Source of the DNA: Azoarcus sp. | GTDB taxonomy: Bacteria; Pseudomonadota; Gammaproteobacteria; Burkholderiales; Rhodocyclaceae | Direction: 5' to 3' | Assembly: GCA_031268195.1 (NCBI GenBank) | Contig: JAIRXQ010000084.1 | Location: forward strand, 1-50,655 | DNA: 50,655 bases | Shown here: positions 4,890 through 48,629 of the stretch, piece after piece | Numbering within the stretch: position 1 is the stretch's first letter | Layout: each line of letters starts with the position of its first letter | Translations under genes and position numbers: made by a program | The notes under the pieces: model-generated | Database searches by the model: none | Seen by the model: the letters and a program-made list of their open reading frames with translations, nothing else | Told to the model about the DNA's origin: nothing

Positions 4890-5816
4890 TCACCGCAACG
4901 GATTCATGTAAATCTCCCCGAACAGCTCGGCGAATTCCCGCCGCCGCGCCGCGCACTCCGGGTCGAGTAGCAGGCATTGCCGATAGAACTCCTTTGCCTC
5001 GGGCACGTGATCGGTCCGGAAGGCGAGCAGGGCCGCCGCGTACAGGATGGGAACCTGGAAAAAATCATAGGACAGCGCGTTTTTCGCCGCTTGCAGGCCC
5101 GCTTCGTATCGATCCTCCCGGATGCATGTTTCCACGATGTGGGCATGATCGGCGTCCGGCATCGCCTCGGGAGAGGATTTGCGCAGCACGACGGTATGGC
5201 CGTTGCCGACTTTGCCGTCGGTTTCTTCCACCGCCTCCACGCAGAACGTCGCCAGTTTTTCGCGGTTGATCCAGTTGATGAGCCGCAGCATCGATTGCAG
5301 GGAATAGCGGTAGTAGTGCTCGCGCCAGCCGTGCGACGGCGCGGGATAGCTCTCGATGGTGCGCGCTTCCCTGTACGCGGCGATCAGTTCATCCAGCGAG
5401 GTGAGCGGCAAAAAGATGTCGAATTGCATCTCCGCCGTTCGCTTGGGAAAAATGCAGAAAAAAATCCCGCCTTCCTTCAGTACGCGGGCGGATTCCACAA
5501 AAGCGGCGACCGGGTTCGGCTCGTGCTCGATGACGTGGGAGCTGATGACGTAATCGAGGCTGGCCGCATCGAACGGGATGTGCTGGAAATCGCCTACCTC
5601 GTCGACTCGTGCGACATGTTGGGTGTAATGCAGCTGCTCGTTCACATATTTTTGATAGTCCTCCAGATCGCGCGGATGCAGGAAACGCACGCCATCGCTC
5701 GGCGCCACGTTCGGGCAATCCGGTAGCCCGAACGGGTTGTGCAGGGCGGCGCCCAGCTCGATGCCTTTGCCGGTGCAATATTTGAACGCCAGTGGATGCG
5801 GCGGGAAAACCTTCAC
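4890..5816 (-). CDS. SAM-dependent methyltransferase with C-terminal helical repeat
   Basis: A 308-residue protein. The N-terminal half has a class I SAM-methyltransferase core: motif I GKGIELGAALHNPFGL near residue 17, acidic and hydrophobic core IPFDAASLDYVISSHVIEHE and RVLKEGGIFFCIFP. Residues about 225-300 look like TPR-type helices (EAGLQAAKNALSYD, EAKEFYRQCLLLDPEC). The start overlaps the glycosyltransferase stop by 4 bp (ATGA), so the two are translationally coupled. As last gene of the glycan block it probably methylates a sugar of the flagellin glycan; the substrate is inference. Confidence 0.8.
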   Translation of the reverse strand: MKVFPPHPLAFKYCTGKGIELGAALHNPFGLPDCPNVAPSDGVRFLHPRDLEDYQKYVNEQLHYTQHVARVDEVGDFQHIPFDAASLDYVISSHVIEHEPNPVAAFVESARVLKEGGIFFCIFPKRTAEMQFDIFLPLTSLDELIAAYREARTIESYPAPSHGWREHYYRYSLQSMLRLINWINREKLATFCVEAVEETDGKVGNGHTVVLRKSSPEAMPDADHAHIVETCIREDRYEAGLQAAKNALSYDFFQVPILYAAALLAFRTDHVPEAKEFYRQCLLLDPECAARRREFAELFGEIYMNPLR

Positions 5817-6649
5817 CGGCGCGCTCGCTTCAGCGTGGCGTTCGCTCGCTCGCCCGCTCGCTCACTCACTCGCCGTGCCTTCAACGCCGCGCGCTGGAAA
5901 ACTTCCTGTCGCCATTCCGCGATGAGCGCGCGATGGTCGGCAAACAGGCCGTGCGCTCCTTTTATTTTCCCGACTGGCGCGGGTGGATCGGACAGGGCGT
6001 CCCGGTGTTTTTCCAGAAAGCGGCGGCCGTATTCCGCATGCTGTTCGTCGTACTGGCCCAGAGAGGTGTGAATGAGCGGAATGTCGCAGCACACGCCGAT
6101 TTTTTTCCCCGCGCGCCACGCCGAGAAGCTGAAATCGAGATCGTAGAGGTGAAATCCATCGAACCTGCTTTCGTCGAAACCGATTTCTTCCGCGACTTCG
6201 CGCCGCGCCATGATGCACAGCCCGTCGATGGCCCGGATGTCATCGACCACGGGCCACGGTTCGGTGTTCCATATGCTCAGACTCAGGCTCCGGGGGTGGG
6301 CGTGCGCGATGGCGCCACAAATCCAGGGGAGTCCCGCGCACCACCAGATGGCGTTGACCAGCTTGCGGGCGCCCGCGAAACCGAGGAGGTCGAAGGTTTC
6401 CAGACGGCGGGCGATCTTGCCCGCGAAATCGTCGTCAAGGATCAGGATGTCGTCGTGCGAAAAGATCACGATGTCGCCCTGCGTCAGTTGCAGGCCCCGG
6501 TTGTAGCCTGCCGCGAGCGATGTGGCGTCGTGAATGCCGACGATTTCATGCGGCACGCCCGCGAGCAGATGTTCATAACAGGCGCTGGCCTGGGCGAATT
6601 TCAGCGGCTCGATGCTGCAAATCACCACTGAAAAAAAGTGTTCGCTCAT
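5813..6649 (-). CDS. Family 2-type glycosyltransferase (StrF-like)
   Basis: A 278-residue glycosyltransferase with a GT-A type core. It begins MSEHFFSVVICSIEP, followed by YNRGLQLTQGDIVIFSHDD and ILDDDF, which supply the nucleotide-sugar and metal-binding acidic residues. The later segment DDIRAIDGLCIMARREV is the acceptor-side motif typical of the StrF-like Glyco_tranf_2_5 family. The start at 6649 overlaps the preceding stop by 4 bp (ATGA). It lies between the fused methyltransferase/TPR gene and a further methyltransferase, so it probably extends the same glycan. Confidence 0.82.
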   Translation of the reverse strand: MSEHFFSVVICSIEPLKFAQASACYEHLLAGVPHEIVGIHDATSLAAGYNRGLQLTQGDIVIFSHDDILILDDDFAGKIARRLETFDLLGFAGARKLVNAIWWCAGLPWICGAIAHAHPRSLSLSIWNTEPWPVVDDIRAIDGLCIMARREVAEEIGFDESRFDGFHLYDLDFSFSAWRAGKKIGVCCDIPLIHTSLGQYDEQHAEYGRRFLEKHRDALSDPPAPVGKIKGAHGLFADHRALIAEWRQEVFQRAALKARRVSERAGERANATLKRARR

Positions 6650-9600
6650 GCCAACTCTCCCACGGCGCATCGGGGCGCTTGCCGCGCCAGGGCGCGCAGG
6701 GCGTCCGCAAAGCCGCGCGCGAAGGCGGCCGGGTCGGCGAGGCCGCGTGACTTCATCCGTTCGCGCAGCAACGGGTCGGGGGCCGGCGCGCCTTGCGCGG
6801 CGAGCTGGCGCGCCAGTTCGACGTAGTGCGCCGTGTTCGCGGCGATCCATTCCGGTTTGTCCAGCGCCCGCAGCAATGCCGACGGACGCCGCGACCAGGG
6901 CAGGGCGCTGTCGAGCGCAATGCACGGCCGGCCCATCCAGAGTGCGGCGGGCAAGGCCGGGCCGCCGTCGTCGATCGCTGGCGCGAGGCCGATGTCCGCG
7001 CGCCACCACAGGCGGCACAATTCCTCACGGTTGCTGGCGGACACAAAGCGGAGGCGTTCCGGCGCCACGTCCGCGCGCTCGAACAGGGTGCGGATGCGCG
7101 CCGGCGCGGCAGCGGGCAGCGTGCCGGTATTGAGCAGGAGCAATGCGTCGGGGCTGGCGTTGAGCACTTCGGCGAACGTGTGCCAACTCTGCGCGCCGAC
7201 CCGGCCGATCGGCGTCAGGCAGGCGAACACCGGGCATGCGTGGCTGCGCCGGGCAGATGCCGCGACAGGTAAATCAGGAAAATGGGCCACTTCGCCCAGG
7301 CCCGGCAGCGGCACGGTGGGGAAATCCGTCCCCACGCCGAGCGCCTCCCCGGCCAGCGTGGCGCAGCCCGGCAAGACGGACGGCATGGGCGTGGCGCTCC
7401 ACAGCAGTTTACAGGGGACCCGCGCCTGCGCGAACACGGTCAACATCTGGCGCGGGCCGTAGGCGTCGAGGTCGATCAGGATGTCCGGCGCGTGTTCATG
7501 GAGGAGGGCGAGCACGGACTGCTCGTCCTGACCGACCACGGGCAGGATATGCTCGACGAGCAGATAGTCGATGTCGGTCGCCTGCGGCCCACCTATTGGA
7601 AGAGAGGAATGCGGGTCGTTGAGCACCAGCATTGGCACGAATTCGTTCCCTGGCAGATGGGACAGGAGCGGCGCCAGTTGCCCGCGCCATGTTTCGCGCG
7701 TGACATCGCTCACGATGAATGCGATGCGTACTGGCGCAGCGTATTTGTCTGGATATCGCGGCGCATCGCCGCCCGTCCCGGAGCAGGCCGGAAACGCTGC
7801 GGCGAGGCGATCCTGAACCTTGCCGAGCGCGGCGACGAAGCGCTCGCCGCGGCTGTCCAGCAAGGCCAGGCCGTGCGCCATGAGCAGGTCGCTTTCCAGG
7901 CGGGTGGAAAAACGTTCGAGGGCCTGCGTGAGCCCATCGAGGTCGCCGCGCTGCGCCAACAGGTCGATGAGAGTGTAGCGGATGGCCTCCCCTGCGGGCG
8001 TCGTTGCGTTGGCCGCCCCCTCCAGGAGAGCAATCGCCTCCTCGCCTTCTCCGCTCAGGAACAGACTTTGCGCCAGCGCCGGGTAAGCGGACCAAAGATC
8101 CGGCTGCCTGGCCAATGCTTCCCGCAAATACTGTGCGGCGGGCACGGGAAGATTTGCCTTCAGAAAACCCTCGCCAATGGCTGCTTGCAGCTCGGCGCGT
8201 TCGGGCGCGAGCGCCTGAACACAAGTCATGAATTGGTGCGCGCCGTCGGTCAGCCCTTGACGAGCGCAGAGGATGGCCAGCCATGCGGGCGGTAAAGGGT
8301 CTTGCGGGAAACGGCGCAGGAGATCGGAGAAGACAGCCGTCGCCTGCTCGAAGCAATCGTGCCGATAGGCTTCGATGCCGCGGGAGAGGAGATTTTCCCG
8401 TTCGCTTGCGGTGTCGGGCCGTTCGGCGCTGCCCACGCAGGCGGCCCTGGCGCTGGCGAATTCCAGCAATCGGTTCTCGATCCGGTACTCTGCGCCTATC
8501 CTCGCCACGTTGCACTCGGTTCCCGTCGTCATATTGACGAAAGGTGCGCGTTTGGGCGCCCTGTAGCGGGTGATGGCGCAGATGGAATCGTAAAAAGCGA
8601 CGCTGGCGATTTCCTCGCGGTACATCGACAGGAATGGAATGGCCTCTGGTCCGCGCTGGGGGGCAATTTCCGTCAGATGATCGCCGTTGAGTCCGTCGAC
8701 GAAACGTTTGAAAAATTCAATGGCGGAATCGTGTTTGCCAAAACCCCCGCCGTATTGCTTCCAATAGGCGGTCAGCAAGTCCTCCACGACGTAGACCCCG
8801 CCCGGCTGCAATTTCTTGAACAGGTTGAGGAAGGCGGCGGCGATGTCCGCCTGCATGTGGGAGCCGTCGTCGAGAATGACATCGAAACGCACGTCCTTGA
8901 ACACAGTATTGATGAAATCGAGATCGGTGGCGCTACCGAGGTGGAACTGAATGCCGTCGCCGAATTCGAGCGCCTGACAGGCGGGGTTGATGTCGATGCC
9001 GTGGATCTCCGAACCGGGCGGCAGGTAATCTTTCCAGATTTGCAGCGAACCGCCGTTCTGCACACCGATTTCGAGCAAGGTGAGCGGTTTGCCCGCATCG
9101 AGATGGCTGGCGAAAATGCGGTCGTAGAGAAATGGATAGTGCGTCACCTTGTAGGCAACGTAACCGCGATGCCGGGCGTAAACGTCGCAATATTCGCGTC
9201 GTTGCCATGATGCGTCACGTACGGGTTCGTCGTGTGTGGATGCGTCGCGTGAGGCTTGGGCGGCTGCGGATGGCGCGGACGGGGCCAGCAACGCCGCGCC
9301 GAGCTGTTTCTTGTATCGGTCGAGCTCCTCGTTCAGCGCCGCGATTTGCCGGCGGTTCTCGGCCAACAGCTTGTCCTTGCTATTGAGCGGCTCTAAATTG
9401 GCGATGCCTTCCGCGCCGCGCGTGAAGCCATTGAAGTACGCCGTGCCGCGCGTCATCATGCGTTGCGGATAGTGGTCGACGTAGCTTGCATCCTTCAGGA
9501 AGACGCCTACGAAGTCATGCCATCCGGTTTCGCAGCGCGCTCCGACGAAGGATTCAAGTAACACCGCATCGACGCCGTTGCGCTGCCCCCACGCCGCCAG

Positions 9601-10032
9601 CGCATGACCGGCGTCGGGGCTGAAGCGCCAGTTATCGGCCGGATGGTGGTGATATGCGAGGCTGTTGCTGGGCACGTTCAGGTAGAACACGCCGCCGGGC
9701 TTGAGAATGCGCAGCACTTCCAGAAACACCAGCCAGAAGAAATCCGAATGCTCGAAGCACGAGGAGGAAACGACGATGTCGGCCGAGGCGTCGCCCAGTG
9801 GCAACGTGTACGGATCGTCGAGCACGATATCGACGCCGTTTCCCGCCGCGAAGTCCAGTCCGGTGTATTGCGTTCCGGTGGGGCACACGTCGCGCAGCGA
9901 CCCGTTGATATTCTGTGAGCCGATCTCGGCCACGCGCAAGGGTGTGCCAGGCGGTGTGCCGAGTGCGCGCGCGGCTTGCGGGCAATATGTTTCGAAAAAA
10001 GTTTTTCCGTGGAACAACGCCGATGGATGCAT
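6646..10032 (-). CDS. Fusion protein: two methyltransferases + TPR + degenerate GT41-like domain
   Basis: An unusually modular 1128-residue protein. Residues about 30-125 are a SAM methyltransferase (LRVAEIGSQNINGS, LRILKPGGVFYLNVPS). About 222-247 is a short coiled coil. About 315-420 is a second, CmcI/rhamnosyl-O-methyltransferase-like domain (LLEIGVQNGGSLQIWKDYLP, FDVILDDGSHMQ). About 545-745 are TPR-like helices. About 768-1110 resembles the C-terminal half of SPINDLY/OGT. In that last part the HP dipeptide, the FxSxNxxxK motif and the GGTTxxD loop of active GT41 enzymes are not preserved (DDGGPALPAALWMGRP stands in the GGTT place). The start at 10032 is set by the upstream GAGAGAGGA. It likely acts with the true GT41 enzyme encoded just before it. 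Confidence 0.82.
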   Translation of the reverse strand: MHPSALFHGKTFFETYCPQAARALGTPPGTPLRVAEIGSQNINGSLRDVCPTGTQYTGLDFAAGNGVDIVLDDPYTLPLGDASADIVVSSSCFEHSDFFWLVFLEVLRILKPGGVFYLNVPSNSLAYHHHPADNWRFSPDAGHALAAWGQRNGVDAVLLESFVGARCETGWHDFVGVFLKDASYVDHYPQRMMTRGTAYFNGFTRGAEGIANLEPLNSKDKLLAENRRQIAALNEELDRYKKQLGAALLAPSAPSAAAQASRDASTHDEPVRDASWQRREYCDVYARHRGYVAYKVTHYPFLYDRIFASHLDAGKPLTLLEIGVQNGGSLQIWKDYLPPGSEIHGIDINPACQALEFGDGIQFHLGSATDLDFINTVFKDVRFDVILDDGSHMQADIAAAFLNLFKKLQPGGVYVVEDLLTAYWKQYGGGFGKHDSAIEFFKRFVDGLNGDHLTEIAPQRGPEAIPFLSMYREEIASVAFYDSICAITRYRAPKRAPFVNMTTGTECNVARIGAEYRIENRLLEFASARAACVGSAERPDTASERENLLSRGIEAYRHDCFEQATAVFSDLLRRFPQDPLPPAWLAILCARQGLTDGAHQFMTCVQALAPERAELQAAIGEGFLKANLPVPAAQYLREALARQPDLWSAYPALAQSLFLSGEGEEAIALLEGAANATTPAGEAIRYTLIDLLAQRGDLDGLTQALERFSTRLESDLLMAHGLALLDSRGERFVAALGKVQDRLAAAFPACSGTGGDAPRYPDKYAAPVRIAFIVSDVTRETWRGQLAPLLSHLPGNEFVPMLVLNDPHSSLPIGGPQATDIDYLLVEHILPVVGQDEQSVLALLHEHAPDILIDLDAYGPRQMLTVFAQARVPCKLLWSATPMPSVLPGCATLAGEALGVGTDFPTVPLPGLGEVAHFPDLPVAASARRSHACPVFACLTPIGRVGAQSWHTFAEVLNASPDALLLLNTGTLPAAAPARIRTLFERADVAPERLRFVSASNREELCRLWWRADIGLAPAIDDGGPALPAALWMGRPCIALDSALPWSRRPSALLRALDKPEWIAANTAHYVELARQLAAQGAPAPDPLLRERMKSRGLADPAAFARGFADALRALARQAPRCAVGELA

Positions 10033-10084: not shown

Positions 10085-12463
10085 TCATGGTTTTTCGCAC
10101 CAGCGCCGCCACATGCCGCGAAATGCCTCTTGCAAATTGCGTGCCATGCGCGGGGCATCCAGCAAGGGGCTGGCGAGCATTTTTTCTCGCAGCCCGGCGC
10201 GTAGCGCCTTGAGGCGCTCGTGGTCGCGCGCGAGCCGCACGGCGATGTCGACGTAATCGTCGGGGCTGCTCGCCACCAGTTCATGCAAACCCACGTTCTC
10301 CAGAATCGCCTTGCCCATGCGCGCCGAAAGGTGCTCGCCGGGCCAGGTCACGAAGGGGACGCCCATCCAGATCGAATCGTAAGACGTGGTGCCGCCGTTG
10401 AAGGGGAAGGGGTCCAGCCCCAGGTCGATTTCGTTGTAGCTTTCGTAATACGCCTGCTGCGATACGTAGCCGCGAAATTCCACCTGGTCGGGGTTCGCGC
10501 CGTGCTGTGCGAAACGGCTCTTGAAGTATTTGATGGTGGCGTCGTCCTTGCCGCCGATGGCGACCAGCACGAGGCGCGCTGTGGGCACGGCGACGAGGAT
10601 GCGGCTCCACAGCGCGATGGTCTGCGCGCTCGCCTTGCGGAAGTGGTTGAGGCTGGCGAAGGTGAAAGGCTGCGCCGTGCGCTCGCAGGGCAGCCCGGGG
10701 GCGATGGCGGTGGCGCTGATATCGGCGCGCACGCCGTAGCAATCCGGCAGCGGCCAGGGTGTTTCGGTACACCAGTGGCCTTTTTCCAGTACCGGGTCGG
10801 GCGGAATCAGGATGTAATCCAGCGCGGACATGCCGCTGGTGCCGGGAAAGCCGAGCCACGTTGCCTGTATCGGCGCGGGCTTGCGCGCGACCGTGTCGGC
10901 GCGCCCGCCGTCGGTGTACCCATTCAGGTCGATGAGAATGTCGATTTCATCCCTCTCGATGAGGTCCGCCAGCGCATCGTCGCCGATGCCGGTCACCGTG
11001 CGCCAATGCTCGGCGAGCGGTTTGATCTCGCGCGTCACCGCATCCTCCTCGGAGAAGTTGTAATAGATGAAGGTTTCCAGCGCGCCGTGATCCAGGTGGC
11101 GCAGGCAGGGCAGCACGAAGGCCGATACCGGGTGCTGGCGCATGTCCGAGGAGAGCCAGCCGATCTTCAGCCGGCGCGCCGGGTTGCGGTCGCGCGCGGC
11201 GAAATCGTTGCCGCGGCGCCGGGGCTTCAGGATGCGCGCATCCATCGCCTGCGCCATCTGCAAAATGTCCGCCGCGCTCGCGGACGAGTCGCTCAACATC
11301 ACCCACAAGCCCTTGCTGTAGAGGGTGCGTGTGTCCGGGTCGGTTTTCAGGCAGCGGCGGATGAGCTCCATCGCCTCCTCCTGACGCCCCTGGTCGGCAT
11401 ACCATGTCGACAGATTCATCCGCGCGTAGAGGTTCTCCGGCTCCTTGTCGAGAATGGCGTTTGCGGCTTCCCACACCTTGTCGCTCTCGCCGGTGCGGGC
11501 ATAGACCATGAGCAGGGTGCTCCATGCCGCGAGGTTGTCCGGGTTGCGCTCGACCGCCATCACCAGGTTCTCGCGCGCCAGCGGTGTCCAGTACTTCATG
11601 GTAAACAGCGTGCCGAGCTGCTCCAGAATCCAGTCCTCGGGGATGCCCAGTTCATGCGCGCGCTGCATGGCGTCGATGGCCGCGATTGCCTCGCCGCACA
11701 GGACCAGCGTGGTCGCGAGCCTGGCCTGCAATTCGGCATCGCCGGGGGCAGAATCTGCCGCCTGGCGGTAAATATTTGCCGCTTCGCGCGTATCGCCCCG
11801 CGCCCAGGCCACGTCGCCCGCCAATGCCAGTGTCGCGGTCCTGTCCGGGGCCAGCGCTTCCAGTCTGCGCACGGCTTCCGCCGCCTTGTCCAGTTCGAGT
11901 TTTTGCAGATGGAGATGGCCGAGCGAGAGCCATGCATCCGGGAAGTTCGGCGCCAGCGAGGTGCCTTTTTTCAGCGCGGCATAAGCTTCGTCGAGTTCGC
12001 CGAGCTGCTGGCAGGCCAGCCCCAACAGGCAGTAATGCGCGCCGAGCGGATGCGGCAGGCGCACGGCCTCTTGCAGCACGGCCTTGGCGTTATGCCAGTC
12101 GCCCGCTTTCACATAGCCGCCCGCGAGCGCGCACAGCACGTCCGCGTTCTTCGGCGCGAGGCGGCGCGCGGCCAGCAGATGCGCCAGTCCGTCCTTCGTT
12201 TGTCCAAGACGGCCCAGCGCCTCGCCCAGCGTTTGCCGGTAGCGCGCGTTGTCCGGCTGCAACTCCACCGCGTGCGCGAAAAAAGTGGCGGCGGTGTCGT
12301 CCTGCCCGATGGCGGCGGCGACTTGCCCCAGCCCGAACCAGCCTTTGTGGGCGGCGGGGGCGAGCGTCACCGCTTCCTCGTACAGCGCGCCCGCGCGGGT
12401 GTGCTCATCCTTGCCGAGCGCCTTTTCGGCGCGGGAAAGCAAATGATTCAGCTTGACGGACAC
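10085..12463 (-). CDS. TPR-containing O-linked N-acetylglucosaminyltransferase, SPINDLY/GT41 family
   Basis: A 792-residue protein with about ten TPR units (residues 1-385) followed by a GT41 catalytic region. Active-site features are present: IGWLSSDMRQHP with the catalytic-type histidine at 444, FASLNHFRKAS with the UDP-contacting lysine at 610, and NGGTTSYDSIWMGVPFVTW at about 689. Such enzymes transfer sugar to Ser/Thr of proteins. The GTG start at 12463 is fixed by a perfect AGGAGG five bases upstream. The gene is divergent from the flagellin fliC1 and heads the four-gene block, so flagellin is the likely acceptor; the sugar is not known. Confidence 0.9.
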   Translation of the reverse strand: MSVKLNHLLSRAEKALGKDEHTRAGALYEEAVTLAPAAHKGWFGLGQVAAAIGQDDTAATFFAHAVELQPDNARYRQTLGEALGRLGQTKDGLAHLLAARRLAPKNADVLCALAGGYVKAGDWHNAKAVLQEAVRLPHPLGAHYCLLGLACQQLGELDEAYAALKKGTSLAPNFPDAWLSLGHLHLQKLELDKAAEAVRRLEALAPDRTATLALAGDVAWARGDTREAANIYRQAADSAPGDAELQARLATTLVLCGEAIAAIDAMQRAHELGIPEDWILEQLGTLFTMKYWTPLARENLVMAVERNPDNLAAWSTLLMVYARTGESDKVWEAANAILDKEPENLYARMNLSTWYADQGRQEEAMELIRRCLKTDPDTRTLYSKGLWVMLSDSSASAADILQMAQAMDARILKPRRRGNDFAARDRNPARRLKIGWLSSDMRQHPVSAFVLPCLRHLDHGALETFIYYNFSEEDAVTREIKPLAEHWRTVTGIGDDALADLIERDEIDILIDLNGYTDGGRADTVARKPAPIQATWLGFPGTSGMSALDYILIPPDPVLEKGHWCTETPWPLPDCYGVRADISATAIAPGLPCERTAQPFTFASLNHFRKASAQTIALWSRILVAVPTARLVLVAIGGKDDATIKYFKSRFAQHGANPDQVEFRGYVSQQAYYESYNEIDLGLDPFPFNGGTTSYDSIWMGVPFVTWPGEHLSARMGKAILENVGLHELVASSPDDYVDIAVRLARDHERLKALRAGLREKMLASPLLDAPRMARNLQEAFRGMWRRWCEKP

Positions 12464-12715: not shown

Positions 12716-13540
12716 ATGCCGCAAATCATCAACACCAACATCCAGTCGCTCAATGCGCAGCGCAACCTGAATACGTCGCAGGGTTCGTTGTTTACGGCGC
12801 TGCAACGGCTGTCTTCCGGCTTGCGGGTCAACAGTTCCAAGGACGATGCGGCGGGCCTGGCCGTGGCCGAGAAGATGAATGCCCAGGCGCTTGGCATGAC
12901 GGTTGCCATCCGCAATGCCAACGACGGCATCTCGCTTGCGCAGACGGCCGAAGCGGGCATGAATGTGATCGGCGAACACTTGCAGCGCATGCGCGCTCTG
13001 GCGGTGCAGGCGGCTTCCGGGCAGTACGACAGCGACAACCGCGGCGCGCTCGATACCGAATACCAGGAGCTGAAGTCCGAAATCGACCGCGTCATCAGCG
13101 CCACCAACTTCAATGGCCAGAAGCTGCTGGACGGCACCTTCGCGTCGGGCATCACGTTTCAGGTGGGGCCGACCACGACGTCCGAATCGCAGATCAATAT
13201 CAGCATCGGACAGATCGTGGGAAGTAACATTTCCAGCATCTCCGGGTCGACCGGCGAAAATGCGTTGAGCGAGATGAGCGTGCTGGACGACATGATCAAC
13301 ACGATCAACACCAACCGCGCTTCGCTGGGGGCAATCCAGAACCGCTTCGAGGGCGTGCTGACGCAGTTGGCCTCGTCGCACGAAGCGACCTCGGCGGCGC
13401 GCTCCCGGATCATGGACGCCGATTACGCGGCCGAGACCGCCGCGCTGGCGCGCGCGCAGGTGCTGCAACAGGCGGGGGTGGCGATGCTGGCGCAGGCCAA
13501 CGCCTTGCCACAGAACGTCCTGCGATTGTTGCAGGGATAG
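12716..13540 (+). CDS. fliC: Flagellin (short, D0/D1 only), copy 1
   Basis: A 274-residue filament protein. It has the conserved N-terminus MPQIINTNIQSLNAQRNLN and the C-terminus QAGVAMLAQANALPQNVLRLL, with only about 50 variable residues between; the outer D2/D3 domains are absent. Ser/Thr-rich surface residues in the centre (GSNISSISGSTGE) are possible O-glycosylation sites. The start has a GGAGGAGAG ribosome site. A near-duplicate lies 361 bp downstream: about 94% identical in the first 140 residues, diverging in the middle. A sigma-54 type promoter precedes it, and GC-rich hairpins follow. Confidence 0.97.
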   Translation: MPQIINTNIQSLNAQRNLNTSQGSLFTALQRLSSGLRVNSSKDDAAGLAVAEKMNAQALGMTVAIRNANDGISLAQTAEAGMNVIGEHLQRMRALAVQAASGQYDSDNRGALDTEYQELKSEIDRVISATNFNGQKLLDGTFASGITFQVGPTTTSESQINISIGQIVGSNISSISGSTGENALSEMSVLDDMINTINTNRASLGAIQNRFEGVLTQLASSHEATSAARSRIMDADYAAETAALARAQVLQQAGVAMLAQANALPQNVLRLLQG

Positions 13541-13901: not shown

Positions 13902-14717
13902 ATGGCACAAATCATCAACACCAACATTCAGTCGCTCAATGCGCAACGCAACCTGAATACGTCGCAAAATTCGTTGAGCACCTCGCTGCAACGCCTGTCT
14001 TCCGGCTTGCGGGTCAACAGCTCCAAGGATGACGCGGCCGGTTTGGCCGTGGCCGAGAAGATGAATGCCCAGGCGCTCGGCATGACCGTCGCCATCCGCA
14101 ACGCCAACGATGGCCTGTCCCTGGCGCAAACCGCCGAAGCGGGCATGAATGTGATCGGCGAACACCTGCAACGCATGCGCACCCTGGCGGTGCAGGCGGC
14201 TTCCGGGCAGTACGACAGCGACAACCGCGGCGCGCTCGATACCGAGTACCAGGCATTGGCGTCCGAAATCGATCGCGTCATCAGCGCCACCAACTTCAAC
14301 GGTCAGAAGCTGCTGGACGGCACGCTCAGCGGCCTCATCTTCCAGGTGGGTGCGACCACCACGGATGAATCGAAGATCAAGATGTCGATCGGTGCAATGA
14401 GCTTTGGCGCCGGGACGGTTTCCGGCAGCTCTGGCGATGCCGCCCTGAGCGCGATCGCGACCCTCGATAAGCAGATCAATACCCTGAATACCAACCGCGC
14501 GGCGCTGGGCGCCATCCAGAACCGTTTCGAGGGCGTGCTCACCCAGTTGTCCGCCGCGCATGAAAACACCACCGCCGCGCGCAGCCGCATCATGGATGCC
14601 GACTACGCTTCCGAAACCGCGGGTCTGGCGCGCGCGCAAGTGCTGCAACAGGCGGGCGTCGCAATGCTCTCGCAGGCCAACGCACTACCGCAGAACGTGT
14701 TGTCGCTGTTGAGATAG
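13902..14717 (+). CDS. fliC: Flagellin (short, D0/D1 only), copy 2
   Basis: A 271-residue flagellin starting MAQIINTNIQSLNAQRNLN and ending QANALPQNVLSLLR. The ATG at 13902 is preceded by AAAGGAG; an in-frame extension upstream is not homologous to flagellins and overlaps the promoter. It is a paralogue of the gene at 12716, differing mainly at residues about 145-200 (here SFGAGTVSGSSGDAALSA). It carries its own sigma-28 promoter, so it is probably the copy co-regulated with late flagellar genes. Confidence 0.97.
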   Translation: MAQIINTNIQSLNAQRNLNTSQNSLSTSLQRLSSGLRVNSSKDDAAGLAVAEKMNAQALGMTVAIRNANDGLSLAQTAEAGMNVIGEHLQRMRTLAVQAASGQYDSDNRGALDTEYQALASEIDRVISATNFNGQKLLDGTLSGLIFQVGATTTDESKIKMSIGAMSFGAGTVSGSSGDAALSAIATLDKQINTLNTNRAALGAIQNRFEGVLTQLSAAHENTTAARSRIMDADYASETAGLARAQVLQQAGVAMLSQANALPQNVLSLLR

Positions 14718-18916: not shown

Positions 18917-19546
18917 ATGAATAAAAAGCTCTGTCTGGCCGTACTGCCAGCCCTCATGCTCGTCGGCACCGCGCAAGCGGCCCTGATCTCATTCGAGCCC
19001 GGCACTGCATCGCCCTTTGTCGTCGATGCCCTGCAAATCAGTTTCATCGACGGGAGCGGGCCGGTTGGCAATAGCAATGTTTCTGTGCCGGCCAGCGGCT
19101 ACTACGGGGTCGCCACGGCCACCTCGGGCACCACGGTGGCCTTCAACCGCAATGGGTTCGATTCGGCCTACTTTGATTACACGGGCGGTGTTTTCACACT
19201 CAATTCGCTCTACATCGCCAGCGCGTGGGGAAGTGCCACGGTGACGTTCCGGGGTTTTCTGGGCGGCGATGAGCTGTTTACCCTGGACCGGGATTTGACC
19301 CTCCAGGCACAACAGGTGACTTTCGACGCCTGGGAAGGCATCGACCGGCTGGTCATCGACATCCTCGATGGCTCCTACGTCAATGACCCCGGCCTCTTCG
19401 GATCTGGCATCGGTACGGGGCCCGAGTGGGTGGTGGACGACATCACCATCAACGAGACGGCCGCGAGCGTGCCCGAACCCGCTTTGCTCGCGCTGCTCGG
19501 GATCGGCCTGCTTGGGTTTGGCGTGGGGTGCCGCAGAAGCGCCTGA
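18917..19546 (+). CDS. PEP-CTERM sorted secreted protein, copy 1
   Basis: A 209-residue exported protein. It has an N-terminal signal peptide (MNKKLCLAVLPALMLVGTAQA), a beta-rich middle and the C-terminal tripartite sorting signal VPEPALLALLGIGLLGFG followed by basic CRR. Exosortase recognises this tail and processes it for release to the outer surface or polysaccharide matrix. No exosortase gene is in the window. The middle (GVFTLNSLYIASAWGSATVT) is homologous to the next gene, so the two are tandem paralogues. A perfect terminator follows. Confidence 0.9.
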   Translation: MNKKLCLAVLPALMLVGTAQAALISFEPGTASPFVVDALQISFIDGSGPVGNSNVSVPASGYYGVATATSGTTVAFNRNGFDSAYFDYTGGVFTLNSLYIASAWGSATVTFRGFLGGDELFTLDRDLTLQAQQVTFDAWEGIDRLVIDILDGSYVNDPGLFGSGIGTGPEWVVDDITINETAASVPEPALLALLGIGLLGFGVGCRRSA

Positions 19547-19579
19547 CTTGTAAAAAGTGCCGACATTTCGATCATCGGA

Positions 19580-19618
19580 CAGGCCGGGAAGAATGTTCTT
19601 CCCGGCCTGCTCTTTTTG
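19580..19618 (+). terminator. Intrinsic terminator after PEP-CTERM copy 1
   Basis: CAGGCCGGGAAGAA-TG-TTCTTCCCGGCCTG is a perfect 14-bp stem followed by CTCTTTTT. Confidence 0.92.
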
Positions 19619-19645
19619 CGGATACTGATGGTGGTCAGCGCGGTT

Positions 19646-19671
19646 TGTCGGGTTTTTTTACACGTTGACGC
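19646..19671 (+). promoter_or_regulatory. 26-bp element shared by both PEP-CTERM genes, copy 2
   Basis: This is the partner of 18730-18755, with the same gapless layout of TGTCG, T-tract, TACAC and TTGACG. It ends 74 bp before the GG-N10-GC promoter at 19745, almost the same spacing as in copy 1, which supports a functional activator site. Confidence 0.6.
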
Positions 19672-19744
19672 GGCTTTTTGCCCAACTCACTTTTCGTGCT
19701 CGCTAACGTATTGAATGACCGTATGATTTTGAACCTGCGCTTTA

Positions 19745-19760
19745 CGGCACGAATTGTGCT
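19745..19760 (+). promoter_or_regulatory. Sigma-54 type promoter of second PEP-CTERM gene
   Basis: CGGCAC-GAATT-GTGC keeps the GG and GC at the 10-base spacing of RpoN promoters, about 45 bp upstream of the ATG at 19804. The N5 spacer GAATT is identical to that of the first PEP-CTERM gene. Confidence 0.6.
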
Positions 19761-19803
19761 ACAACAGATCGTGCTTTATCTTTAGTTGCCCAAAGGATTC
19801 GAC

Positions 19804-20418
19804 ATGAACAAAAAATTGAAACTGTTTGCGTTGTCAGCCGTACTGTTTTCGGGTGCTGTGCAAGCCGAAGTGCTCGACTTCACAGGTGGCAATGCCTCGC
19901 CGTACTTCACCACGGACAACATGGAAGTCCGCTACGTCGACACGGCCGATACCACTGCGTCCCCCCCGGGCAGCGGTTACGCGAATCTCGCCAACTTCAC
20001 GTCGAATGCCTGGCTTGCGACCAATCGCAACCAGAACTCTCCGGCGACATTCAGCTACACCGGCAGCGGTACTTTCGCGCTGGAGTCGCTGTATGTCACG
20101 GGCGCGTGGGGTTCCAGTGACGTGACCTTTGCCGGCTACAGGAACGGTGAGCTGCTCTTTACCTCCGCGGTCGCCATTTCGCTGACGCCCCAGGAAGTGG
20201 TCTTCAATTGGGAAGGCCTCGACCGGCTCGTCATCACGACCGGCGATCGGTTTGTGCCCGATTCCGCGATGTTTGACCAAGGCTACACCGGGCAATTCTG
20301 GGCGCTGGGCACGATGACCGTCACCGTTCCCGAGCCGGAAGTCTACACCATGCTGTTGGCAGGTCTGGCGATCGTAGGCGCTGTAGCGCGCCGCCGCCGC
20401 GGGATTGGACGCATCTGA
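19804..20418 (+). CDS. PEP-CTERM sorted secreted protein, copy 2
   Basis: A 204-residue protein. It has a signal peptide (MNKKLKLFALSAVLFSGAVQA) and the C-terminal sorting signal VPEPEVYTMLLAGLAIVGAV followed by the basic ARRRR. ESLYVTGAWGSSDVTFAGY matches SLYIASAWGSATVTFRGF of the upstream paralogue. The ATG at 19804 is chosen because the signal peptide begins there. It likely contributes to the surface or floc/biofilm matrix; the partner exosortase must be elsewhere in the genome. Confidence 0.9.
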   Translation: MNKKLKLFALSAVLFSGAVQAEVLDFTGGNASPYFTTDNMEVRYVDTADTTASPPGSGYANLANFTSNAWLATNRNQNSPATFSYTGSGTFALESLYVTGAWGSSDVTFAGYRNGELLFTSAVAISLTPQEVVFNWEGLDRLVITTGDRFVPDSAMFDQGYTGQFWALGTMTVTVPEPEVYTMLLAGLAIVGAVARRRRGIGRI

Positions 20419-22580: not shown

Positions 22581-22733
22581 GACGGCTGCCGGTAATTTTC
22601 GATGCTCGATTGTACGAAATAAGCGGCCTCGCGACTTATTTGCCGGGGTGACATTTTTTCTGATTTTGTATTGTGGAAAACACTTATACGATGCCTCTGG
22701 GTATTTGAGTCGTATATTCAGAAGGAGCTGAAA

Positions 22734-25700
22734 ATGGCACGGAAAATCCCGACGGAGAGCGGAATCCTGGTGACGTGCTGCGCACTGATGTTGTATGCGT
22801 TGCCCGCCTGGTCGGCTGATGCGGTCGTCGAGGGCAACGACAGAGCGGCGCTCGATGCCGCCGTCACCGCTGCGGGGGCGAACGGCACGGTGCTCTTCGG
22901 TATGGCGGCCGGAGTGACGTTCGGTCTCGCCGATCCGGCTGTGCAAATCGGCGTGGACAACCTGACGATCGAGGGTTGGTTCGACAGTGGCACGGGCGGT
23001 GTCTCCGCTCTGGCCACGAGCATTTTCAATGCCATAAACGCCAGCAGGACACAGACGGCGAGTGACTTGAATACGGCAACACAGAATGCGTTGGTTGCGT
23101 ACCTTGCAAGCATCGGAGGCACGCTTACGGGGCTCTCCAGCATCACATCGAGTGATCCAACCACTACACGCAGTGGGGGAGTGTCTACCACTTTCTACAA
23201 CGGCCGAAAATGGTTGGCGCTCGACAACAACATAAGCGGCCTGAGCCTGGAGAATCTCGGCATTTATGGCGTGACGGCGAACTACACCAGTGTCCGCGTC
23301 GTCAACGGCCTGATCGGCAACATCAATACGACGAGCGGGGACGTGTCGATTGGGCATGTGACCGGCAATGCTTTTGACGACATCCACATTCAGTCGAGTG
23401 GAAACACGGATCAATATCTGGCGGGCGGCGGCGTGATTGGGTTGCGTTCCACGGGGACGTCAGGACTAACGGGTGGCTCGGTGGATGTGGACAAGGTGTC
23501 CGGGAACATTTTTCGCAATGTGACGGTGGCAACGACCGGCGGCGCTTACCTTGAAGGCGGTGGACTCATCGGGCTGGATGCGGTGTCCTCGCCCGCCGAG
23601 ATTATCGGCCACGCCAGATTGGGCGAATTGTCCGGGAACCTGTTTACCAACGTTCAGGTGAGTTCGAGCGACATCCTGCTGGGCGGCGGGCTCGTGGGGA
23701 GCAACAATAACAGCAAGGATGACACGAACGGTTTTGATAACGGCGACTACGACGCCGCTGCGAATAGAACCTATGCTTCGATCGACACGATCACCAACAA
23801 CGTTTTCGCGGGCGGCATCACGGTCGATGTCGCCAAACTCATGCGTGGCGGCGGGGTGATCGGCGTCCATGGTCTGAGCAATGCCTCCGCCATGATTCAG
23901 GATTTCAGCGGCAACGTTTTCTACGACATCACGGTGAATGGTACACCGGCACCGGATTCGTCCATCCGGGGCGGCGGCATCGTCGGGCTGGCGAGCAACG
24001 ACAATGACTTGACGGACGTGAAAGGCAAGGGAACAGAAGCGGCTGCCGATGACACAGAGCTGAAAGTGTTCGGTGACATCGACAACTCCCTGGAGCGCGC
24101 GCCGGTGATTCTCGACAACGCCTCGAACAATCTTTTTCTCAATCTGACTGTAAAAGCCGCAGGCTCCATCGACGGCGGCGGCATCGTCGGGTTGCGATCC
24201 GGCAGAGGGTTGACGGGGTTGTATACCTTGCAAGGTAACGTTTTCAAGGGGTTGACTGTGGAGACGACCACGGATACAGGCGATCTGATCGGCGGCGGCG
24301 TCGTGGGGTTGTCGTCCAAGGCCGTCTCGTTTCTGGACGATGTCAGCGACAATTATTTCGATGACATAGTGGTGAATATCGGCGGAAATATTCACGGCGG
24401 CGGTCTTATTGGTGTGAGCGCTGTCAAGTTGGCCGGCGACACCGACACCAAGGTCGCTGTCATCTACAACATCACCCGGACTGATTTCCTGAATTCGACC
24501 GTCGAGGCGGGCGGGTACATCGACGGCGGCGGCATTGTCGGCGTGACGGGAGAACCGGGCACGGTTGGCGGCATTGGCGATCCGGTCGCGGGCATCGCCC
24601 TCATCGACGCCAGCCGCTTCACTGGCAATGACGTCACGGCGGATGGCGACATTCTGGGTGGCGTGGTCTACAGCTACGGTGCGCCGGGCATGATCATTTC
24701 CGACAGCGTGTTTACAGGCAACACCATGACCAGCACCAGCGGGCATGTCTACGGCACGGTCGCGCTGGACACCGGGGTGGCAAACGCCGATGTGGGCGAC
24801 CCATTCACCTTGACGCTGCGCGCGACGAACGGGAAAACCACGCTGTTCCGGGGCAACAGCATTGACGATACTGAAGGTGAGCGTACCAATTCTATTTATT
24901 TCGGCATCAGTAACGACCCGAGTAACAACGATCCCGATCCCGCCGAAACCGATGCGCAGCTCATCATCGACGCCCAGGCCGGCGGGACGGTGGCGCTTTA
25001 CGATCCCATCGAAGCCCATCAGGATGGCACCCATACGTTCGATATGATCGTCAATGGATCGGGCGGCGCTTTTATCTGGGGGGGGGAGAACAGCTTCACC
25101 ACCGAGGCTGCTAGCGGCGGCACGGTCGCGCTGCTCTCCGGCAGCAACACCACCTTGCTGAAAGGCATGACGCTGGAAGCAGACAACCACGCTTTCAGTC
25201 TCGCTTCTGGCGGTACCTTGAACGTGCGCGGGAGTAATGTGCTGACGCTCAGCAACGGCAGTGCCACTTTGCGCGGCACGCTCAACTTCGATCTGGCGGG
25301 CACGACGCTCGACGACGAGTCGACCACCATGCTCACTATCGTGGCGCCGTCGGACGCGGTCGACATCTCGGGCAGCACGGTCAATCTGCTCGATATGCCG
25401 GCGAACGTCCAGTTTCAGGCGGGCGATGAATTCTATCTCATCAAGACCGCTGACACGGATGATCTGACTGGCAATCCGGTCAACGGCCACGACTACGTGC
25501 GCAGCGGATTCACGCAAGGGTACGACTTCATCATCGACAAGAACGACGTGAACGGGACAGGCGACAACAGCCAGTACCTCGTTGCCCGGTTGACGCGCGC
25601 CCGGCCCGCGCCCGAGGGCAAGACGCTGCTCGAAGGCCGCGCCGCGGGGCTGGCCTATCTTGCGCAGCGTGGCAGTTGGTTGGCCGACCATAGCTATCAG

Positions 25701-26570
25701 TCCGCCGACCTCGCGCTCGAAGATCGCGTCGATGAGCGTGAATGGGAGTCGTTCGGCGGTATCGACGTGGGCCGCTTCCGCGCCGACACGGGGTCGCACA
25801 TCGATGTGTTCGGCACCACCGCGCTTGCCGGCGCCGCGACGAAAAAGCGTGGCGACAACGGCGATTACCTCGTCGGCGTGTTTCTGGAAGCGGGCTACGC
25901 CGATTTCAAGACGCACAACACCTACAGTGACATCGGGCGGCATGTCGACGGTAGCGGCTATTTGCGCGCTTACGGACTCGGCTTGATGGGGCGGCGGCAG
26001 TGGGACAACGGCAACCGGCTCGAAGCCTCGCTGCGCGGCGGGCGGCTGGAGACGCATTTCCGCTCGAAGGACTACGTCAATGCGCAGGGCCGCGCCGCTT
26101 CTTACGAGCTGGAGGTGCCTTATGCCGCCGCGCACCTCGGTGCGGGGCATACGTGGCAGTTGGACGAACTGAGCGATTTCGACTTGCTGGCGCGCTATTT
26201 CTGGACGTGGCAACAGGGCAAGACGGTGGCGCTGAGCGGCACCAGCGAGCGCGTGAATTTCCACGATTCCGACTCGCACCGTGTGCGCGCGGGCGGACGT
26301 TACACGCGCAAAAAACAGGGTGACGACAAGCGCGCGTGGTATGTCGGTGCGGCGGTGGAGCACGAATTCGGCGGCAAGACGAAAGGGCATGCCATCCATC
26401 AGGACGAGTTTGATGCGCCGAGCCTGCGCGGCACGAACGGTATTGTGCAAACCGGCATCATCTACCGTGCCCACAAGCAAAGCCCGTGGGGCGTGGAACT
26501 TGGCGTGCAGGGCTATGTCGGCGCGGTGCGCGGTGTGAGCGGGGGGATTCGGATCGGGCGCGAATTTTGA
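22734..26570 (+). CDS. Type V autotransporter with repetitive beta-helix passenger
   Basis: A 1278-residue self-secreting outer-membrane protein. It has a signal peptide (cleavage near SWSADA-like PAWSADA), a passenger of about 900 residues, then a C-terminal autotransporter barrel of about 280 residues ending GVSGGIRIGREF with the terminal aromatic. The passenger carries about eleven repeats of the form N-x-F-x4-V, 8-15 residues, then GGG-hydrophobic-hydrophobic-G (LAGGGVIGL, LEGGGLIGL, IDGGGIVGL and so on), each 50-70 residues apart. The ATG at 22734 is set by AAGGAG. An exposed adhesin-like role is likely; the ligand is unknown. Confidence 0.92.
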   Translation: MARKIPTESGILVTCCALMLYALPAWSADAVVEGNDRAALDAAVTAAGANGTVLFGMAAGVTFGLADPAVQIGVDNLTIEGWFDSGTGGVSALATSIFNAINASRTQTASDLNTATQNALVAYLASIGGTLTGLSSITSSDPTTTRSGGVSTTFYNGRKWLALDNNISGLSLENLGIYGVTANYTSVRVVNGLIGNINTTSGDVSIGHVTGNAFDDIHIQSSGNTDQYLAGGGVIGLRSTGTSGLTGGSVDVDKVSGNIFRNVTVATTGGAYLEGGGLIGLDAVSSPAEIIGHARLGELSGNLFTNVQVSSSDILLGGGLVGSNNNSKDDTNGFDNGDYDAAANRTYASIDTITNNVFAGGITVDVAKLMRGGGVIGVHGLSNASAMIQDFSGNVFYDITVNGTPAPDSSIRGGGIVGLASNDNDLTDVKGKGTEAAADDTELKVFGDIDNSLERAPVILDNASNNLFLNLTVKAAGSIDGGGIVGLRSGRGLTGLYTLQGNVFKGLTVETTTDTGDLIGGGVVGLSSKAVSFLDDVSDNYFDDIVVNIGGNIHGGGLIGVSAVKLAGDTDTKVAVIYNITRTDFLNSTVEAGGYIDGGGIVGVTGEPGTVGGIGDPVAGIALIDASRFTGNDVTADGDILGGVVYSYGAPGMIISDSVFTGNTMTSTSGHVYGTVALDTGVANADVGDPFTLTLRATNGKTTLFRGNSIDDTEGERTNSIYFGISNDPSNNDPDPAETDAQLIIDAQAGGTVALYDPIEAHQDGTHTFDMIVNGSGGAFIWGGENSFTTEAASGGTVALLSGSNTTLLKGMTLEADNHAFSLASGGTLNVRGSNVLTLSNGSATLRGTLNFDLAGTTLDDESTTMLTIVAPSDAVDISGSTVNLLDMPANVQFQAGDEFYLIKTADTDDLTGNPVNGHDYVRSGFTQGYDFIIDKNDVNGTGDNSQYLVARLTRARPAPEGKTLLEGRAAGLAYLAQRGSWLADHSYQSADLALEDRVDEREWESFGGIDVGRFRADTGSHIDVFGTTALAGAATKKRGDNGDYLVGVFLEAGYADFKTHNTYSDIGRHVDGSGYLRAYGLGLMGRRQWDNGNRLEASLRGGRLETHFRSKDYVNAQGRAASYELEVPYAAAHLGAGHTWQLDELSDFDLLARYFWTWQQGKTVALSGTSERVNFHDSDSHRVRAGGRYTRKKQGDDKRAWYVGAAVEHEFGGKTKGHAIHQDEFDAPSLRGTNGIVQTGIIYRAHKQSPWGVELGVQGYVGAVRGVSGGIRIGREF

Positions 26571-47553: not shown

Positions 47554-48629
47554 CCATGATACTGCCTTGGCTTGAACCGCTGTGGGCGCAACTCGTTGCG
47601 CTGGATGAGCGCCTGCCGCACGCGCTGCTCATTGCGGGCGCCTCCGGCCTCGGCAAGCGCGAACTGGCCGAGGCGCTGGCGGCGCGGCTGCTGTGCGAGT
47701 CGCTTCAAATGGACGGCTCGGCCTGCGAGCATTGCGTGCCCTGTCAGTGGCGGCGCGCGGGCACGCATCCCGATCTGCACCGCCTCGTGCCGGAGAGCGA
47801 GCGGGCAGGGGCCGAGGCAGCGGCGTCCGCCGAGGCGGCCGACGTGTCGGACGCGGGCGCGAGCAAGGCGAAATCGACCCAGATCGTCATCGATCAGGTG
47901 CGCGCGGTGCAGGAGGCGCTGACCGTCACCGCGCATCGCGGCTGGCGGCGGGCGGTGATCGTCGATCCCGCCGAGGCGATGAATGCCTTTACCGCCAACG
48001 CGCTTTTGAAGCTGCTCGAAGAACCGCCCGATGGTTGCACCTTCTTGCTCGTTTCCTCCGCGCCGCGCCGCCTGCTGCCTACGATTCGCAGCCGTTGCCA
48101 GCAATGGTCCGTGCCGTGCCCGAGCGCGGACGCGCTCAAACGCTGGCGGGCGGGGCAGACGGTGGCGGAGCGCGTGCCGGCCGGGCTGCTCGCGCTCACC
48201 GGCGGCATGCCGCTGGCGGCGCAACGGCTGGCGGCGCAGGGCGGCGAGGCGCTTTTCGAGCGTTTCGTGCGCGACCTGAGCGCGGAAGGGTTCGACCCCT
48301 TGCGGCTGGCCGGGCAGTGGGAAGCGTGGATCAAAAAAGACAAGGCCGCGCTGGCGGCGGGACTGGGCATGACGAGGCTGGTGGAATGGTCGCAGCGTTG
48401 GGTGAGCGATCTCGTCGCGTTGCGGCTGGGCGGACGTGTGAGATTTTTCCCGGCGCAGGCTGAACGTTTGGCGGTACTTTCCAACCGCATGGACATGGCC
48501 ACGGCCATGGGCTGTTACAATGATTTCGTCACGGTACGCCGGGTGGCGGCTCATCCGCTCAACCCGCGTCTTTTTCTTGAAGATATGCTGATGCGCTACG
48601 CGCGCATCGTCGAAGGAGCCCGGCCTTGA
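47550..48629 (+). CDS. holB: DNA polymerase III subunit delta'
   Basis: A 359-residue clamp-loader subunit. It has a P-loop-like region (HALLIAGASGLGKRELAEAL), zinc-ligand cysteines (CEHCVPCQWRRAGTHPDL), the RRAVIVDPAEAMNAFTANAL helix, LLKLLEEPPDGCTFLLVS and SRC (TIRSRCQQW). An acidic Ala-rich insert (AEAAASAEAADVSDAG) precedes VIDQVRAV. The ATG at 47550 overlaps the mltG stop by 4 bp; pilZ overlaps its own stop (TTGA). Confidence 0.95.
   Translation: MTMILPWLEPLWAQLVALDERLPHALLIAGASGLGKRELAEALAARLLCESLQMDGSACEHCVPCQWRRAGTHPDLHRLVPESERAGAEAAASAEAADVSDAGASKAKSTQIVIDQVRAVQEALTVTAHRGWRRAVIVDPAEAMNAFTANALLKLLEEPPDGCTFLLVSSAPRRLLPTIRSRCQQWSVPCPSADALKRWRAGQTVAERVPAGLLALTGGMPLAAQRLAAQGGEALFERFVRDLSAEGFDPLRLAGQWEAWIKKDKAALAAGLGMTRLVEWSQRWVSDLVALRLGGRVRFFPAQAERLAVLSNRMDMATAMGCYNDFVTVRRVAAHPLNPRLFLEDMLMRYARIVEGARP

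Follow-up and report, generated by a model that had tools for sequence, protein, structure and literature searches.

Azoarcus sp. possesses, next to its flagellin genes, a fusion gene whose product we regard as a flagellin-decorating enzyme (with a probability of roughly 55%). In this protein two methyltransferase heads are joined to tetratricopeptide repeats (TPRs) and to a GT41-like domain that has lost its donor-site residues, and this catalytically dead part would dock glyco-flagellin for exchangeable enzymes. The TPRs and the GT41-like domain together are referred to below as the carrier; it is under purifying selection, and among relatives it is combined with heads of different classes. 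The genes and gene parts concerned in the window (the whole stretch of 50,655 nucleotides that was analysed) are the following.

6646-10032 (-), whole fusion gene, 1128 amino acids, open reading frame with ATG at 10032 and stop at 6646
9358-9945 (-), class I SAM-dependent methyltransferase core (nMT), residues ~30-225, Pfam Methyltransf_11 with its best stretch at 65-118
8473-9219 (-), MycE/TylE-like sugar O-methyltransferase head, residues ~272-520, PDB 3ssm with E 1e-19 and 8ia9 with E 2e-10
7828-8415 (-), TPR region, residues ~540-735, Pfam TPR_19 at 632-676 with E 5e-7
6658-7755 (-), GT41-like domain without donor site, residues ~760-1125, from Pfam, structure-profile match, profile-profile alignment and motif mapping
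10085-12463 (-), TPR-GT41 enzyme, motifs intact, on the strand of the fusion gene and 52 bases upstream of it, Pfam GT41 E 2e-50
5813-6649 (-), Glyco_tranf_2_5 glycosyltransferase (GT2; Pfam), its start codon overlapping the stop of the fusion gene (ATGA)
4890-5816 (-), Methyltransf_11 protein that also matches TPR weakly (Pfam), its start overlapping the stop of the GT2 gene (GTGA)
12716-13540 (+), flagellin gene 1, divergent, named by sequence recognition, with homologues in relatives
13902-14717 (+), flagellin gene 2, with 82% identity to gene 1

The sequence-only reading of this DNA had seen two SAM-binding cores, TPRs and a C-terminal region that follows the neighbouring GT41 protein, and all of these were recovered. 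The second methyltransferase core has its best Pfam stretch at 318-419, and the solved structure 8ia9 that it matches is a demethylmacrocin O-methyltransferase. The TPR region is 30-59% identical among those relatives that have a BLAST match to it. In the C-terminal part, Pfam Glyco_transf_41 was found at residues 944-1079 (E 1e-7; 31 bits with a cut-off of 25), and the nearest solved structure is PDB 5djs, a Thermobaculum GT41 protein (E 6e-14 in one search and 4e-21 in another). Residues 632-1118 align with the neighbouring GT41 protein at 23% identity (BLASTP, E 3e-16), and the profile of the carrier aligns with that of the neighbouring GT41 enzymes over 334 columns with E 5e-30 (hhalign). 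The order of two methyltransferases, TPR and GT41 is real in the window, whereas it does not characterize the family: among 35 family proteins nMT has a BLAST match in the window only (at E 1e-4), so that the two-methyltransferase order is an exception, and what stays constant is the TPR region together with the GT41-like domain. A stand-alone homologue of nMT, 46% identical, is present at another locus (L039). The GC content within the gene changes from 0.61 in nMT and 0.57 in the MycE part to 0.66 in the TPR region and 0.70 in the GT41-like part, a step that fits an acquired head.

For the mapping of donor-site residues, 35 carrier domains and 18 neighbouring GT41 enzymes were aligned and the two alignments were joined by profile-profile alignment. 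The three GT41 motifs that had been described as lost in the window's protein are indeed replaced:

7690-7695 (-), E780-T781 in place of HP
7201-7203 (-), R944 in place of the donor-phosphate lysine (SPY K665/human OGT K842)
6946-6966 (-), GGPALPA (residues 1023-1029) in place of GGTTxxD

The donor-phosphate lysine was found in 0/35 carriers (R in 22, G in 7, N in 2, H in 2, E in 2) and in 18/18 neighbouring enzymes. The same holds for both threonines of GGTT (the second is A1026 in the window) and for the aspartate of GGTTxxD, each 0/35 versus 18/18. The HP motif has its histidine in 2/35 carriers and its proline in none, while both are present in 18/18 neighbouring enzymes. As a control we used GT41 frames from other genomes of the class, taken from the 29 loci most similar to the carrier profile (one of them from the same order), with frames below 40 bits left out. 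In this set the lysine was present in 30/30 frames covering it (two more frames do not cover it), the HP histidine in 31/31, and the second GGTT threonine in 28/29 (Ser in the remaining one). The first threonine, the HP proline and the aspartate (D, E or Q) vary among the control frames, and the distinction between the groups therefore rests on the lysine, the histidine and the second threonine. Two TPR-GT41-methyltransferase fusions in the class sample (L089 and L096) retain the lysine. Mutation of this lysine in SPY (K665) abolishes activity (PMC9715652), and in the protein of 5djs Lys341 is reported at the equivalent position (PMC4683255). The 5djs chain carries Met there in the structure match; we assumed that the crystallized chain is a lysine mutant, for which the available text of the paper gave no confirmation (PMC4683255). 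The earlier proposal that the GT41-like domain is non-catalytic is thus well supported, as judged from these residue patterns.

The carrier has conserved positions of its own: 24 columns are invariant among the 35 domains, and its specific residues include the invariant W1046, R1049 and G1023 as well as P1028, present in 33/35. A rebuilt active-site cleft was considered and not adopted: positions that are conserved differently in carriers and enzymes show no significant enrichment in the loops of the former active site, a loop set picked from residues in the literature (4/60 versus 8/285, Fisher p 0.23); the sequence thus gives no proof of a cleft rebuilt for a new ligand. The GT41-like domain is under purifying selection, with dN/dS of 0.17-0.55 in 10/10 close pairs (the pairs were chosen). 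This selection is weaker than that on the neighbouring GT41 enzyme, for which dN/dS was 0.09-0.18 in six pairs; in the six matched pairs the carrier value exceeded the enzyme value by a factor of ~1.8 to 2.5. In a quick tree of GT41 domains all carriers group together in one clade, with 34 other GT41 domains outside it; the branch leading to the carriers is very long, which calls for long-branch caution. An origin of the carrier as a recent local duplicate of the neighbouring GT41 gene was rejected, because the local enzymes group with other GT41 domains and the carrier forms a separate clade.

It is conceivable, but in our opinion improbable, that the GT41-like domain has remained an active glycosyltransferase, using another donor or other pocket residues, so that the protein would transfer a sugar and methylate it. 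Purifying selection and the invariant residues peculiar to the carrier speak for such an enzyme, and the Arg at the lysine position of 22/35 carriers could still contact a phosphate; these points have to be set against the absence of the lysine, the two threonines and the aspartate from all 35 carriers and against the retention of the lysine in all 30 other GT41 frames. A precedent would be FlmG, a protein with TPRs and a GT-B type domain, which acts on flagellin and needs pseudaminic acid (PMC7591256), whereas PseI (pseudaminic acid synthesis) had no match at E 0.001 in the window's genome and was over its cut-off in 2/21 genomes of the genus. Pseudaminic acid as the flagellin sugar is therefore unsupported for the window's genome.

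The reading of the carrier as a docking unit for exchangeable enzymes draws on the gene maps of relatives, in which the N-terminal part is variable and the C-terminal part constant. The 35 heads belong to five classes (GT4-like, 14; MycE-like, 12 including the window; GT9, 5; GT2, 3; radical SAM, 1), which were defined by BLAST clustering before the tree was made, with Pfam alongside; the heads of L026, L033, L035, L036, L067, L069 and L071 begin at or beside a contig end and are possibly incomplete, and that of L069, lacking a Pfam match, was classified by BLAST only. An extra methyltransferase match was found in 4/5 GT9 heads (the fifth is cut by a contig end) and in 1/3 GT2 heads. Mapping the head classes onto the best carrier tree requires 11 changes (the minimum possible is 4), and strongly supported branches force at least 4 changes for MycE, 3 for GT9, 3 for GT2 and 2 for GT4-like heads. 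Carrier trees with one head class confined to a single clade were rejected (p 5e-75 for MycE, 2e-94 for GT9 and 5e-4 for GT4-like heads). Heads have been exchanged on a constant carrier. The earlier suggestion that the carrier presents its ligand for methylation is hence too narrow, since the heads of 23/35 relatives belong to other classes (some of these heads include a methyltransferase). Head exchange under a constant carrier makes docking and presenting more plausible than it was from a single sequence.

The label of the GT4-like class comes from an E-x6-E/CGCP-like motif and from related modules at two loci (L115 and L116), and the function is putative. A profile search of this head against solved structures gave chance-level matches (best E 0.38), and Pfam Glyco_transf_4 was matched in 1/14 of these heads (E 0.022). 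The two loci with related modules (L115:7926-11390 and L116:7926-11498) belong to two related genera and encode proteins of 1154-1190 amino acids with the GT4-like module at the start, beside flagellin genes; the remaining parts of these proteins look glycosyltransferase-like by eye. Stand-alone relatives of the MycE-like module (L104) and of nMT (L105) are located among GT41 genes in two other families of the order. The window's own genome carries, on another contig (C34; L114:9355-10572, minus strand), a gene for a GT4-like head plus TPR of 405 amino acids, which ends within the TPR region and has no GT41-like match. A head plus TPR without the GT41-like part was also seen at L037. Two family copies (L012/L031:6100-7407 and L037:6950-10072) are broken by a TGA inside the matched stretch, which could reflect an assembly error, decay or phase variation.

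The carrier domain is present in 17/21 genomes of the genus; it was not seen in G003, G008 and G015, and G016 has head plus TPR only. Among 369 genomes of the class, no match exceeded 124 bits once the window's genome (497 bits) was set aside. The wider spread was followed in one scan of genome contigs with two peptide patterns, which limit the result: 34/111 pattern matches were relatives, at 33 loci, 17 of which lie on contigs already in the sample. The records with these relatives are titled Azoarcus, Zoogloeaceae, Betaproteobacteria, Rhodocyclales, Azovibrio and Dechloromonas and are metagenome bins; several of the carrier-bearing bins are presumably from termite guts, on which the record titles are silent. 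The set of 35 carriers is confined to GT41-like matches above 150 bits, and fragments (L073 and, in G014, one of 98 residues) are excluded from it.

A GT41 enzyme is encoded in the same fetched stretch for 18/35 carriers, and a flagellin gene for 16/35 (both counted from maps). In the remaining 17 no GT41 enzyme was found in the fetched stretch, about ten of these being cut close by a contig end, and seven (L040, L051, L053, L057, L058, L064 and L070) are flanked on each side by 3 kb or more that lack a GT41 enzyme; L040 is the second carrier copy in its genome. Linkage of the carrier to GT41 genes is therefore common but not strict, and the statement that the fusion gene directly follows a GT41 gene, correct for the window with its 52 bases, holds for part of the family, some carriers being kilobases away from any GT41 gene. 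In the window, flaG, fliD and fliS (named by recognition) follow the two flagellin genes on the strand opposite to the fusion gene. At two other loci (L029 and L055), genes 65-67% identical to that at 4890-5816 separate the fusion gene from the GT41 gene. Elsewhere in the window there are an open reading frame of 1299 amino acids that looks autotransporter-like by eye (22671-26570), two open reading frames with PEP-CTERM-like tails by eye and ~240 bases between them (18917-20418), and a 92-base tRNA-Glu predicted by ARAGORN within a long open reading frame (48217-48308), which is doubtful by its length and place.

This gene arrangement bears on another possibility, that the GT41-like domain is a dimerization or regulatory partner of the neighbouring GT41 enzyme, steering it or bringing the methyltransferase to it. 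The two genes lie on the same strand 52 bases apart, and dimerization, in head-to-tail orientation, is known from plant SPY (PMC9715652); however, ~3 kb or more on both sides of seven or more carriers are free of a GT41 enzyme, although a distant gene could supply the partner, and we consider this explanation doubtful. The least probable explanation, which we regard as very unlikely, is that the domain is a decaying GT41 relic behind a useful methyltransferase: the lost donor-site residues, the weaker constraint compared to the neighbouring enzyme and the proteins without a GT41-like part (L114 in the same genome, with head and partial TPR, and L037) would agree with decay, but not the 35 carriers in one clade with their 24 invariant columns, the dN/dS below 0.6 in 10/10 pairs and the repeated change of heads.

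Returning to the flagellin-decorating enzyme, the chemistry that its head could perform may be deduced from MycE and TylE, which are free-standing enzymes of macrolide synthesis; in MycE, His278 serves as the base. The residues corresponding to the MycE active site in the window's head are the following.

8857-8868 (-), D389 and H392 (DDGSH), equivalents of MycE Asp275 and His278 by alignment, with residue names according to PMC9275233
8779-8781 (-), D418, equivalent of MycE Asp304 by the same alignment

This mapping assumes that the 3ssm chain is 20 ahead of the numbering in PMC9275233, where Asp275 and Asp304 are reported to be Mg ligands. The equivalent of Asp275 is present in 14/14 MycE-type heads, that of His278 in 13/14 and that of Asp304 in 12/14. 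The window's head keeps all three residues and differs from MycE/TylE by the missing loop with MycE Tyr208 (a gap in the alignment). As to the sugar, RmlD, an enzyme of dTDP-rhamnose synthesis, scores above its cut-off in the window's genome, and based on this match dTDP-rhamnose synthesis is likely to be present, although it may serve LPS only.

In the proposed pathway, the neighbouring GT41 enzyme would act in the cytoplasm and add the first sugar to Ser/Thr residues of flagellin, after which the glycan would be lengthened by the GT2 protein. The carrier, which presumably no longer binds a nucleotide sugar, would grip flagellin via its TPRs and possibly accommodate the flagellin-bound sugar in its former cleft. 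The MycE-like head would then transfer a methyl group to a hydroxyl oxygen of a sugar, which may be rhamnose. If the head is swapped and the carrier kept among related strains, the glycan would vary while the docking unit stays constant.

Fusions of methyltransferase and GT41 are already known (PMC4875605), as is the pairing of a transferase with an acceptor-holding partner (PMC6973325). In the flagellin glycosylation islands of Enterobacteriaceae, methyltransferase and GT41 are likewise found in one protein beside flagellin genes; compared by description, these fusions are reported as glycosyltransferases, and the available text does not mention lost catalytic residues (PMC4875605). The FlmG protein of Caulobacter resembles the carrier in having TPRs and a GT-B type domain in flagellin glycosylation, and it binds flagellin by its TPR domain and not by its GT domain (PMC7591256). 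It differs, again by description, in being held to be an active transferase with pseudaminic acid as donor, and head modules are not described in the text available (PMC7591256). In CheR-TPR fusions a methyltransferase is joined to TPRs as well, but these are chemosensory methyltransferases, for which the accessible part of the source mentions no GT41-like part (PMC3447774). The GtfA-GtfB system of serine-rich repeat adhesins consists of a transferase and an acceptor-interacting chaperone partner, though it acts on Gram-positive adhesins and belongs to other families (PMC6973325). With OGT and SPINDLY, the carrier has in common the TPRs followed by a domain homologous over the GT41 length, and it differs from them in the absence of the lysine, both threonines, the aspartate and the HP proline in 35/35 cases. 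GtfB has a GT-B fold and, to our knowledge, no exchangeable heads. The lost donor site of the carrier would agree with a GtfB-like role, in which it might hold an acceptor and transfer no sugar. Neither a GT41 carrier without donor site nor an exchange of heads was described among the matches listed from the open-access literature, and searches of this literature for an architecture of flagellin, methyltransferase, GT41 and tetratricopeptide and for a GT41 pseudoenzyme glycosyltransferase yielded no paper.

How specificity is programmed in O-linked glycosylation is poorly understood (PMC7591256). We give an even chance to the broader proposal that the dead GT41 domain with its TPRs is a general docking carrier for (glyco-)flagellin, used in this bacterial lineage by methyltransferases, glycosyltransferases and even a radical SAM enzyme, so that the surface would change while the recognition unit remains the same. 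Reading proteins with this carrier as GT41 transferases would then be wrong. A carrier without catalysis that is nevertheless reused with new heads would be a case in which recognition has been separated from chemistry by natural swaps.
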